A DNA stretch of 64,000 nucleotides from Lachnospiraceae bacterium NK4A179 (GTDB taxonomy: Bacteria > Bacillota > Clostridia > Lachnospirales > Lachnospiraceae): the NCBI GenBank assembly GCA_000421045.1, contig ATWC01000010.1, positions 1 through 64,000 of the forward strand, in the 5' to 3' direction. Each line of letters opens with the position of its first letter. Positions within the stretch are counted from its first letter, which is position 1. Positions 12,388-26,054 of this stretch are shown here, piece by piece. The notes under the pieces are model-generated. The model had not been told where the DNA came from and did not search any database. It was given only the letters and a program-made list of their open reading frames with translations. Made by a program: the position numbers and the translations under genes.

Positions 12388-12621
12388 AACTTCCACACAC
12401 CGATAGCCTTGTCTGACGGTGGTACCGTTCGCCAAGCAGTTTTTACGAAAATGCTAGAGGCTATTGGTTCTTTCCGGAATCGCTCACACGCCACATCCAT
12501 GTGTCGTTGTTCGCTCGGTCCGCCTTCCATGGCGGCCCGTTCCTGGGGTAAATAAGCATTTTCGAGAACTGCTAAGGCTCACTTAAATACCGTCAGACAA
12601 GGCTACATGGTGCGGGAAGTT
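12388..12621 (+). mobile_element. MITE-like 234-bp element, copy A
   Basis: Begins AACTTCC and ends GGAAGTT. The outer 33 bp of each end form imperfect terminal inverted repeats containing GCCTTGTCTGACGGT and its complement. A second inner inverted pair (GCAGTT...ACGAAAATGC against GCATTTTCGAGAACTGC) and two small central hairpins make it an almost full-length palindrome. It carries no transposase. An ungapped copy of identical length lies inverted at 15972-16205, about 87% identical by hand count. No clear target-site duplication is visible. Confidence 0.8.
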
Positions 12622-15971: not shown

Positions 15972-16205
15972 AACTTCCTGCACCGTGTGGCCTTGTCTGA
16001 CAGTGATAAAGTGAGCCTTAGCAGTTCTCGAAAATGCAAAGATTCACCAGGAACGGACCGCCATGGATGGCGGGTCGAGTGAACAACGACACATGGATGT
16101 GGCGTGTGAACGGTTCCGGAAATATGCCATAGCCTCTGGCATTTTCGTAAGAACTGCTTGGCGAACGGTTCCACTGTCAGACAAGGCTACCGGTGTGAGG
16201 AAGTT
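15972..16205 (-). mobile_element. MITE-like 234-bp element, copy B (inverted)
   Basis: Reverse complement of the element at 12388-12621, with the same length and no gaps needed. It has the same AACTTCC...GGAAGTT ends and GTCTGAC motifs. It lies between the EF-G-like gene terminator and the NUDIX gene and contains no ORF of its own. Confidence 0.8.
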
Positions 16206-23888: not shown

Positions 23889-23922
23889 GTATAAACACCG
23901 TTTTATCAGGAATTTACAATAT

Positions 23923-23960
23923 AAAACACAGAAACCGTTAATGGTTTCTGTGTTTTTTCT
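23923..23960 (+). terminator. ilvE terminator
   Basis: AAAACACAGAAACC (23923-23936) pairs with GGTTTCTGTGTTTT (23943-23956), followed by more T. A perfect 14-bp stem. Confidence 0.9.
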
Positions 23961-24074
23961 TTACGAGGAAATTATGGGGAGTAAATATTATAAACATTTA
24001 TAGAGTGTTATAATCAGTAGTGTGGTTTACATAGATATTAGTAAAAAATAATTTAAAAATAATCAAGAAATGTA

Positions 24075-24102
24075 TTGACAAATTAAAATAAAATGGTAAT
24101 AT
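24075..24102 (+). promoter_or_regulatory. promoter of the structured RNA
   Basis: TTGACA at 24075-24080 and TAATAT at 24097-24102, 16-bp spacer, in an AT-rich context. Transcription would start near 24109. The AT-rich 110 bp between the ilvE terminator and this promoter shows no other feature. Confidence 0.7.
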
Positions 24103-24108
24103 ATAAAC

Positions 24109-24594
24109 ATAACAACAACAGAGGTTGTTGATCACATAGATTCAGAAAGGTAGGATCAATGGTAAGGTTAACAGCAGAAAGGTTGTCTCGTATTACTTGA
24201 AAAAGGAGGTACGGTCCAAAGGGTAATTAAGTAATGTAGACTGAATTTATGGAACGGAAGGCAAAGCGGATAAGTCGTGACGAGAAAGCGGCAGAGATCA
24301 AAGCAGAACCGGGAACATATTTCAGAGCTACAGGGAAACGGCAGAAAACTTGTTTAAGTTTCATCAAAGGATAAAGCGGTGATAAATAAGCCGCAGTTCA
24401 TATGAACAAAGGTGAAGGATGACAGGGGAAACAAAGCCGGTAGAGAGAGTCAATTTAATAAAGGTAATGTCCGCGGTGACGAACCGGGAACGGACGGAAA
24501 AGGGAATTAGAGTTTTAGGAGGTACAGTCCCTTGGACAGTGAAGTAGTTTGAGAGCCCTTGCAGATTTGAATGATGATCTGTAAGGGCTTTCTT
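24109..24594 (+). ncRNA. large structured non-coding RNA, about 490 nt, class unknown
   Basis: No credible ORF, but a complete transcription unit: TTGACA/TAATAT promoter and a strong intrinsic terminator. Seen hairpins include CAACAAC/GTTGTTG at the 5' end, AAACTT...AAGTTT (24346-24361), GTTCATATGAAC (24396-24407), GCGG...CCGC, and a nested GTCCG-CGGT...ACCG-CGGAC (24469-24495). Loops and joints are purine-rich (GGGAAAC, GACGAGAAAG, GGTGAAGG). GGAGGTAC[G/A]GTCC occurs near both ends (24205-24217, 24518-24530), and GAACCGGGAAC occurs exactly twice (24306, 24481). It lacks RNase P, tmRNA, SRP, 6S, T-box and riboswitch signatures that I know. Size and style resemble ornate large RNAs such as ROOL or OLE, but I cannot assign it. 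Confidence 0.7.
24554..24594 (+). terminator. terminator of the structured RNA
   Basis: AGCCCTTGCAGAT (24554-24566) pairs with ATCTGTAAGGGCT (24577-24589), with one mismatch, then TTCTTC. Confidence 0.8.
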
Positions 24595-24620
24595 CATGTT
24601 CGGAAAAAATAATATCGCTT

Positions 24621-24657
24621 CATTATTTTTGACACTCGCATCAAATAATGATACGAT
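24621..24657 (+). promoter_or_regulatory. promoter with inverted repeat ahead of the GH3-like gene
   Basis: TTGACA at 24629-24634 and TACGAT at 24652-24657 (17-bp spacer). The -35 element is framed by CATTATTT (24621-24628) and AAATAATG (24643-24650), a perfect 8-bp inverted repeat that could be a repressor operator. Confidence 0.5.
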
Positions 24658-24701
24658 ACGTCTGTATTTTTTTTCGAACTTTATGAGGCTTTAGATCTGA
24701 T

Positions 24702-26054
24702 ATGAGAGACAATAATAATGATGAAAGAAGGGAATACAGAAGAAACCGAAGGGTAAGGAATCAGATACTTGCCTATCTTCTTCTGGTCATATTGGTAGGG
24801 CTTGTTACAGTCCCTCTTTATATGGGTGCACGAGCGCTTGTTCACGAGATTGCAAGCAATAATAAGGTGCCGGAGATCTCTGAAGTTTCCGATGATGATG
24901 CGGACAGTGTTTCCGATGACCTTCCGGATACGATCTCATCGCCTGATGCTGCTTTAAGTGTTTCTGCGGATGAGGAAACTTCCGTAGAAGAAGAGACCAC
25001 CGAGCCTGTTGATGAAGATATCAGAGCTGCCATAGATTCCATGAGCACAGAACAGAAGACTGCTGCGCTTTTCATGGTCAGCCCCGAAACCATGACGGGA
25101 GTGGATATTGCATCACGTGCCGGAGACGGAACCAAGGCAGCTATAGAAAAATATGCGGTCGGCGCAATTGTATATGATAAGAAAAATGTACTGGATGAAG
25201 CCCAGTTTAAGGATATGGTCGATAAGACCGGAGAAATGTATGCCGAAGCTTATGTTTCAGGCAATGATCTAAGATATCTGATAAAAGCCGTTAAGGAAGA
25301 TGGAACTTATACAGCTCTTTCAGCGGCATCCGGAAAGACGGCGCCGCAAAACGGAAGCGCTCTTGCTGCTTCAGGTGACAGCAGTGCTGCATACCAGGCA
25401 TTCCTTGATACGGGAAGTCTTCTTAATGAATACAAGATCGATCTGGATCTGGCTCCTGTATGTGACCTTGCATCAGAATCTTCCTATGTAAAAGATGAAG
25501 CATTCGGTTCTGATCCGGATGCGGCCGCTATGCTTGCTGCATCTGCTGTATCGGCGCTTTCTGACCAGAGGATCATGTCCTGTGCTTCAACCTATCCCGG
25601 CCAGGGTGAACTTACGGCTGCACCTGCCGGTGCATCAGAATCGGCCAAGTCATTTGATGATCTTAAAGAAGCTGAAATGAAGCCTTTTGCATCATGTATA
25701 GAAAAGGGAGTACCTTTTGTAATGGTTGGTGCTCTTACAGTTTCAGGAAACGATGAGGCTGATGCGCCTGCTTATATATCAGAAAAGATGATCTCGTATC
25801 TAAAGAATGATATGGGATTTGAGGGTGTGGTGATAACGGATGACCTTTCTGTGATCTCGCAGGGGGCTGAGTTTGATCAGGGTGAGGCCGCACTCAGAGC
25901 GATCAACGCAGGAGCAGATATGATCTATGTATCTGCCGGTTTTGAAGATACATACAATGCAGTACTCAAAGCAGTTATGGATGGAGCGATCACGGAGGAA
26001 CGCCTTGATGATGCTCTTGTAAGACAGTATAAAATTAAGAAAGAATTCAAATAA
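24702..26054 (+). CDS. membrane-anchored GH3-like protein, probably catalytically degenerate
   Basis: 450 residues: a basic cytoplasmic start, one transmembrane segment (about 22-44), an acidic Ser/Glu-rich linker (50-105), then a glycoside hydrolase family 3 N-terminal barrel. The nucleophile region GVVITDDLSVIS (Asp near 380) is kept. The KHFPGHG/DSH loop that supplies the general acid in NagZ-type enzymes is STYPGQGELTAAP (about 294-306), with no His. It is probably a binding or scaffold protein facing the wall. The start has no strong ribosome binding site. Directly downstream of the structured RNA but with its own promoter; leuS follows after 23 bp. Confidence 0.75.
   Translation: MRDNNNDERREYRRNRRVRNQILAYLLLVILVGLVTVPLYMGARALVHEIASNNKVPEISEVSDDDADSVSDDLPDTISSPDAALSVSADEETSVEEETTEPVDEDIRAAIDSMSTEQKTAALFMVSPETMTGVDIASRAGDGTKAAIEKYAVGAIVYDKKNVLDEAQFKDMVDKTGEMYAEAYVSGNDLRYLIKAVKEDGTYTALSAASGKTAPQNGSALAASGDSSAAYQAFLDTGSLLNEYKIDLDLAPVCDLASESSYVKDEAFGSDPDAAAMLAASAVSALSDQRIMSCASTYPGQGELTAAPAGASESAKSFDDLKEAEMKPFASCIEKGVPFVMVGALTVSGNDEADAPAYISEKMISYLKNDMGFEGVVITDDLSVISQGAEFDQGEAALRAINAGADMIYVSAGFEDTYNAVLKAVMDGAITEERLDDALVRQYKIKKEFK

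Follow-up and report, generated by a model that had tools for sequence, protein, structure and literature searches.

A stand-alone RNA gene of about 490 nt almost certainly occupies positions 24108-24592 of the window, by which we mean the whole 64,000-nucleotide stretch of DNA that was analysed. Our best reading is that this RNA represents a new class, known so far from Lachnospiraceae, which is built on one to six Shine-Dalgarno modules of the form GGAGGUANRGWCC. The sequences provide a promoter, a covarying fold and a conserved 3′ module with a micro-ORF, and there is no fixed downstream gene. We tentatively propose, with somewhat less than even confidence, that the RNA may function as a ribosome-engaging regulator of, or sensor for, initiation capacity. 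If this is true, the RNA couples a large fold to the loading of ribosomes onto a frame whose protein product is too short to be of consequence, and RNA would thereby have a new means of sensing or controlling translation. The carriers are rumen and gut Lachnospiraceae.

Extent, fold and identity of the RNA

The features of the RNA gene are listed in Table 1. An earlier, sequence-only reading of this DNA had proposed a large structured orphan RNA with its own promoter and a strong terminator. The promoter was confirmed: TTGACA and a -10-like box are found at this position in 13 of 13 aligned members of the genus. Furthermore, a promoter-like pair occurs somewhere upstream in 62 of the 73 loci that have at least 600 nt of upstream sequence (a count made without a shuffled control). 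As for the terminator, the 3′ hairpin is indeed strong, but its tail (TTCATGTTCG) is T-poor, so that the description as a strong terminator holds only in part.

Table 1. Positions in the window of the RNA gene and its parts.
Feature	Positions	Strand	Basis
Promoter, sigma-70 type, TTGACA-16-TAATAT with upstream TG	24075..24102	+	sequence
RNA (approximate ends), from beyond the -10 box through the 3′ hairpin	24108..24592	+	fold, covariation, homologues
5′ hairpin CAACAAC..GTTGTTG (helix 1)	24113..24130	+	in 6 of 20 sequences, G-C or G-U replaces one C-G pair
Upstream module copy GGAGGTACGGTCC, AAG at the start-codon position, in-frame TAA at 24228-24230	24205..24217	+	
Strand GTCCAAAGGG, which in the predicted fold covers the TTG start by pairing with CCCTTGGAC (24529-24537)	24214..24223	+	pair probabilities 0.58-0.92
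Central domain ACTTGTTTAAGTTTCATC ... GGTGAAGGATGACAGGG, with an inner hairpin	24348..24427	+	helices 9-12
Hairpin GTCCG..CGGAC (helix 14), holding the second GAACCGGGAAC	24469..24495	+	both-sided change in 3 of 5 pairs
3′ module copy, Shine-Dalgarno AGGAGG (24517-24522) within AGGAGGTACAGTCC	24517..24530	+	predicted unpaired 0.93 on average
Micro-ORF TTG GAC AGT GAA GTA GTT TGA (MDSEVV, then stop)	24532..24552	+	conserved frame; own Shine-Dalgarno
3′ hairpin, 17 bp, terminator-like	24551..24592	+	helix 16; both-sided change in 8 of 18 pairs

The folding energy of the RNA is -132.2 kcal/mol, compared with a mean of -101.5 kcal/mol (sd 5.35) for shuffled sequences; the z value is -5.73 and none of 100 shuffles folded as well. 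The claim of a large structured RNA stands. In 20 sequences from the genus, the 77 consensus pairs are standard pairs in 92.6% of cells. Both-sided changes were observed in 33 of these 77 pairs (shuffled mean 18.5, none of 500 shuffles as high; 8-15 with slid partners), a comparison that leans in favour of the structure because the consensus structure was taken from the same alignment and pairs below 75% were dropped. Further pair types exceeded the shuffles weakly (72 versus 66.9, with 20 of 500 shuffles as high). Support is good for the 3′ hairpin, for the central domain and for the GTCCG/CGGAC hairpin. Within the central domain, both-sided changes were found in helices 9, 11 and 12 and none in helix 10. 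Homologues and covariation had been suggested as a check on the original proposal, and both were found.

Two internal direct repeats had been reported, and their positions were exact: GGAGGTAC[G/A]GTCC at 24205 and 24518, and GAACCGGGAAC at 24306 and 24481. The latter does not hold as a repeated module. It is unconserved: the closest relative has ACAGGGAACAC in place of the first copy, and the second copy is part of a hairpin.

We compared the RNA with known families. A search with the Rfam 15 covariance models, which had also been suggested as a check, found no family at gathering score over the RNA in the window. When matches with E values up to 5 were collected from 23900-24720, there were five, every one far below its cut-off. 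On 19 related loci Rfam again found nothing over the RNA; two tRNAs and a Clostridiales-1 RNA fall outside it. A known family, including OLE, ROOL, GOLLD and raiA, was therefore rejected. These RNAs and raiA/ModT resemble the present RNA in size class, in being stand-alone genes, in their complex folds and in having functions that are unknown or partly known. In contrast to them, the present RNA matches no Rfam family, its body is poorly conserved between genera and its defining feature is the Shine-Dalgarno/micro-ORF module. A likeness to ROOL, OLE and GOLLD had been suggested; it was not borne out, since no match was found and the stretch before the 3′ module varies from 58 to 574 nt (median 355 nt).

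Other candidates were also rejected. The single RNase P RNA match (RF00010) in the genome lies elsewhere (contig C27, 318 bits), as does the only, sub-threshold, match to 6S RNA (RF00013; contig C1, 32.2 bits), and neither ARAGORN nor Rfam found a tmRNA in the window. A long coding gene was rejected as improbable from the ORF lengths in the 13 members of the genus, in which the longest sense ORFs have 33-68 codons and the longest antisense ORFs 36-86 codons, with inconstant length. A phage origin was rejected since no match was found among phage records. A scan of viral contigs returned two contigs (L149 and L150) that are identical near the site, and in both of them a 40-aa ORF follows the start site GGAGGTACAGTCCATTGGAC; by our own estimate, these matches are possibly about what chance would give.

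Taken as an orphan, independently placed, structured RNA with covarying homologues and without an Rfam 15 match, the RNA is supported as a new family. None of the papers listed by literature searches, in a library with few subscription journals, describes such an RNA in its title or at the start of its abstract. The candidates given in PMC8040213 span 27 to 219 bp.

The Shine-Dalgarno modules and the micro-ORF

The repeat GGAGGTANRGTCC is a Shine-Dalgarno module. The sequence-only reading was right that GGAGGTAC.GTCC is a repeated site, but the site looks like a ribosome-binding module with a micro-ORF rather than a generic structural module. It had also stated that there is no credible ORF; in fact, a conserved 6-codon ORF with its own Shine-Dalgarno was overlooked. 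The 3′ copy of the module reads AGGAGGTANRGTCC, followed by one base and TTG. Codon-type substitution had been named as a sign against the RNA; it touches the terminal micro-ORF only and not the RNA body.

We collected 142 copies of the 3′ module, many of them repeat fetches, and reduced them to 64 non-redundant sequences. The first stop codon in the TTG frame is at most 9 nt from the base of the hairpin in 61 of the 64, compared with 14 and 12 for the other two frames, a test that overstates independence because the non-redundant sequences are still related. The exceptions are L029, L056 and L077. L029 is an upstream copy with a 2-codon ORF, which was counted although its overlapping duplicate L130 was dropped; in L056 and L077, by our reading of the sequence, the simple finder picked the wrong hairpin. 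The stop codon is TGA in 31 sequences, TAA in 17 and TAG in 16, and, except for the 2-codon ORF of L029, the lengths are 5, 6, 8, 9, 10, 11, 16 and 17 codons. No residue of the peptide after the second codon is conserved in the 64 sequences, and the second codon (mostly Asp) owes its constancy in part to the search pattern. Five sequences (L104, L124, L125, L149 and L150) were left out of these counts. L125 lies in a 34-codon frame and looks like a chance match. L124, which was also dropped as chance, may be real: it has a TTGACA box about 60 nt upstream and an ORF of 5 codons.

The TTG form was found in 14 of 397 genomes of the family (reversed control, 4), with L124 and L125 among these matches. 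Because TTG was part of the pattern, we searched the same 397 genomes with A, C or G as the first base. This gave 25 matches in 23 genomes (reversed control, 1): 24 had ATG, one had GTG and none had CTG. The ATG and GTG starts thus belong to genera other than that of the window. An ORF of 2-16 codons is opened by 23 of the 25, and the other two (L173 and L180) run into long frames. A stop within 16 codons was observed in 23, 20 and 16 of the 25 matches for the three frames. Thus, short ORFs in this set are not frame-specific, and the choice of start codon is the evidence. Judged from these comparisons, the micro-ORF is conserved, start-codon-dependent and locked to the 3′ hairpin, and it is very probably translated.

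Each RNA has zero to five upstream copies of the module, and at least one such copy was found in 47 of the 73 loci with at least 600 nt upstream. In 40 non-redundant upstream copies, the start-codon position is mostly CCN, ACA or AAG; ATG occurs in three (L076, L129 and L147) and CTG in two (L050 and L112). Since most upstream copies have no start codon, translation cannot be a property of all modules. Nevertheless, 38 of the 40 have a stop in this frame no more than 20 nt away (22 and 21 in the other frames), for which a conserved TAAG element, and not translation, may be responsible. In the genome of the window, GAGGTANRGWCC occurs twice, both times in the RNA, and the reversed control pattern occurs five times. 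In genome G357, a single contig, all six GGAGGTANNGWCC are in one RNA, where five form an array that repeats about every 54 nt. These five tandem upstream modules read GGAGGTACRGACCAMC, and most are followed by GAAACGATA (locus L120).

In the predicted fold of the window's RNA, the start codon is paired to the upstream copy and the Shine-Dalgarno is 93% open (Table 1). The CCA/TGG closing pairs are present in the consensus fold. For most members of the genus, a possible alternative is a pairing of CCACC with the 3′ GGAGG. Covariation between the two copies was found for neither pairing in the 20 sequences from the genus, in which the closing pairs are nearly invariant.

Distribution of the RNA

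BLAST searches of 40 genomes, including that of the window, found the RNA in 13, all of the same genus. We then used R1, a covariance model of 183 positions that covers the middle and 3′ part of the RNA. R1 found the RNA in 16 of 24 genomes of the same genus and in none of 16 genomes of other families. On reading, three weak extra matches in the genus contain the promoter, the 3′ module, the micro-ORF and the hairpin. In 299 genomes of the family, R1 gave 10 matches, one of which is the window. Five of them (L024, L025, L026, L029 and L031) are, on reading, true relatives from other genera. The weak matches L027, L028, L030 and L032 lie inside coding sequence; they were regarded as chance and left out of the counts. 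The coding sequence under L027, L030 and L032 is presumably that of phosphoglycerate mutase, and L028 lies in another coding stretch.

A search of 84,980 species genomes with the pattern GGAGGTANRGTCCMTTGGAY gave 86 stretches, 80 of which have a title. Most titles name Lachnospiraceae; the others name Acetatifactor, Butyrivibrio, Blautia, Hominifimenecus or Eubacterium, or only a bacterium, Eubacteriales or Bacillota. Thus, 79 of the 80 carry Lachnospiraceae or broader names compatible with that family. The sole exception, L104 (Flavobacteriales), has none of the other features and was rejected as chance. The 3′ module is present in the named isolates Acetatifactor muris DSM 23669, Hominifimenecus microfluidus CLA-AA-H215, and Lachnospiraceae XPB1003 and AB2028. 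We also searched 371 genomes of the class for the module followed by ATG, GTG or TTG, and it was found in 3 of the 356 that lie outside the family. Because the reversed control gave 2, this is background, and by that test the module is confined to the family. In two genomes of one genus from another family of the class (G475 and G677; loci L181 and L182), GGAGGTAAAGTCCAATGG is followed by a 4-codon ORF (MASR, then stop), which may be a chance match or a distant relative.

Three loci whose titles name Acetatifactor (L054, L058 and L099) share an inner element GTAACG...CGTTACAGTRC, which resembles GCAGCG...CGCTGCAGCA of the window's genus; an upstream copy was not found in them. L065 and L097 have GGGGCTGTTTTAGCC in common near the 5′ end. 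The genes flanking L065, L097 and L071 belong to one cluster, whose longest member we take to be SecA.

Possible functions of the RNA

We propose that ribosomes would initiate at the 3′ module and form a few peptide bonds before halting against the hairpin. Selection would then act on ribosome engagement and not on the peptide. The upstream copy may pair with the start site and thereby gate initiation; alternatively, it may be a second (decoy) site for a ribosome or an initiation factor. In this manner, the RNA could read out or buffer initiation capacity; for example, it might be stabilised, refolded or released once a ribosome occupies its 3′ end. An RNA machine can also be imagined, in which start-competent modules load ribosomes for a few codons and start-less copies, most of which retain the in-frame stop, keep or display ribosomes or initiation complexes but do not initiate; free ribosomes would in this way be sensed and buffered. 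We regard this extended form as doubtful.

Leader-type ORFs, minigenes and repeated motifs are each known already. We know of no dedicated structured RNA that is built of repeated Shine-Dalgarno modules.

A minigene effect is a close rival to the regulator proposed above, and on its own we consider it rather unlikely. Here, a very short ORF with a strong Shine-Dalgarno would stabilise the RNA in cis, or drop-off of peptidyl-tRNA would tune translation. The ORFs have 2-17 codons, most of them 2-6, and a strong Shine-Dalgarno, a start and an early stop are all present. The lambda bar minigene likewise combines a Shine-Dalgarno with a very short ORF that acts via translation. So does the two-codon minigene mg2 of axe-txe, which sits in an mRNA and is reported to act in cis, possibly via mRNA stability (PMC8708949). 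In contrast, the present RNA is dedicated and structured, and its modules, of which the 3′ end has one, number as many as six. Moreover, lengths of up to 16-17 codons, upstream copies that mostly have no start codon, and a flank beyond the Shine-Dalgarno whose conservation exceeds what a plain minigene seems to require do not fit a minigene well.

The RNA is flanked by an aminotransferase class IV gene on one side and by a GH3 (NagZ-like) gene on the other. A second rival is a cis-acting leader, in which the hairpin, controlled by translation of the micro-ORF, would attenuate the downstream gene; in many loci this gene encodes a peptidoglycan hydrolase (GH3/NagZ-like or Amidase_3). In 80 contexts other than the window, the next gene is on the same strand in 54 (GH3-like 31, amidase-like 11, other 12), while 20 have it on the opposite strand and in six no gene was called; Pfam domains were checked for one GH3-like and one amidase-like downstream protein. 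A same-strand wall-hydrolase gene thus follows in 42 of the 80 contexts, which counts against our regulator reading and could reflect a cis role at those loci. The stop at the base of a terminator-like hairpin, found in the 61 of 64 sequences described above, is also the layout of leader-peptide attenuators, and the T-poor tail suggests weak termination. However, the 20 opposite-strand genes and the 12 different same-strand genes show that neither the direction nor the kind of the downstream gene is kept. In addition, the window's downstream gene has a promoter-like site of its own (TTGACA-17-TACGAT) in a consensus scan. A consensus scan of 43 such intergenic stretches gave 20 with a score of at least 9 of 12, but for just 12 of the 43 did no more than 5 of 100 shuffles score as well. 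Because the contexts vary and no downstream gene is fixed, we regard the RNA as its own unit, which is often, but not always, beside wall-hydrolase genes. An attenuator is possible at the wall-hydrolase loci; as an explanation of the RNA in general it is unlikely. Attenuator, CsrA sponge and tmRNA readings all fit poorly.

The third alternative is a sponge for a GGAGGUANRGWCC-binding protein of the translational repressor type, with CsrA as the first candidate. As in CsrB-type sponges and ToxI repeat RNAs, a motif is repeated in one RNA; its several copies are confined to this RNA, and there are 14-22 GGA per RNA in the 13 members of the genus. However, csrA presence does not follow the RNA: when carriers are defined by BLAST, csrA was found in 11 of 13 of them and in 9 of the 11 genomes without the RNA; when they are defined by R1, the counts are 13 of 16 and 7 of 8, respectively. 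The carriers G012, G019 and G023 gave no csrA match, and G001 gave just a 20-position fragment. Thus, a CsrA sponge was rejected for lack of co-occurrence, and, since a protein site would leave the reading frame unexplained, a sponge in general is quite unlikely. Finally, a small mRNA whose product is the peptide is very unlikely: the start codon and an in-frame stop are kept, as in the dual-function RNAs RNAIII and SgrS, which are likewise structured RNAs with a small ORF, but the present peptide has 5-17 codons with no conserved residues after the second, and a median of 355 nt precedes the 3′ module.

Known RNAs were also found near the loci studied here. In one member of the genus (L147), a Clostridiales-1 RNA (RF01699; 1237-1402, minus strand, 48.2 bits against a cut-off of 48) begins about 48 nt 3′ of the RNA's 3′ hairpin; it adjoins the present RNA as a separate element, without overlap. 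The window itself contains two TwoAYGGAY RNAs (RF01731), at 16007-16165 on the plus strand (96.4 bits) and at 12422-12587 on the minus strand (88.3 bits).
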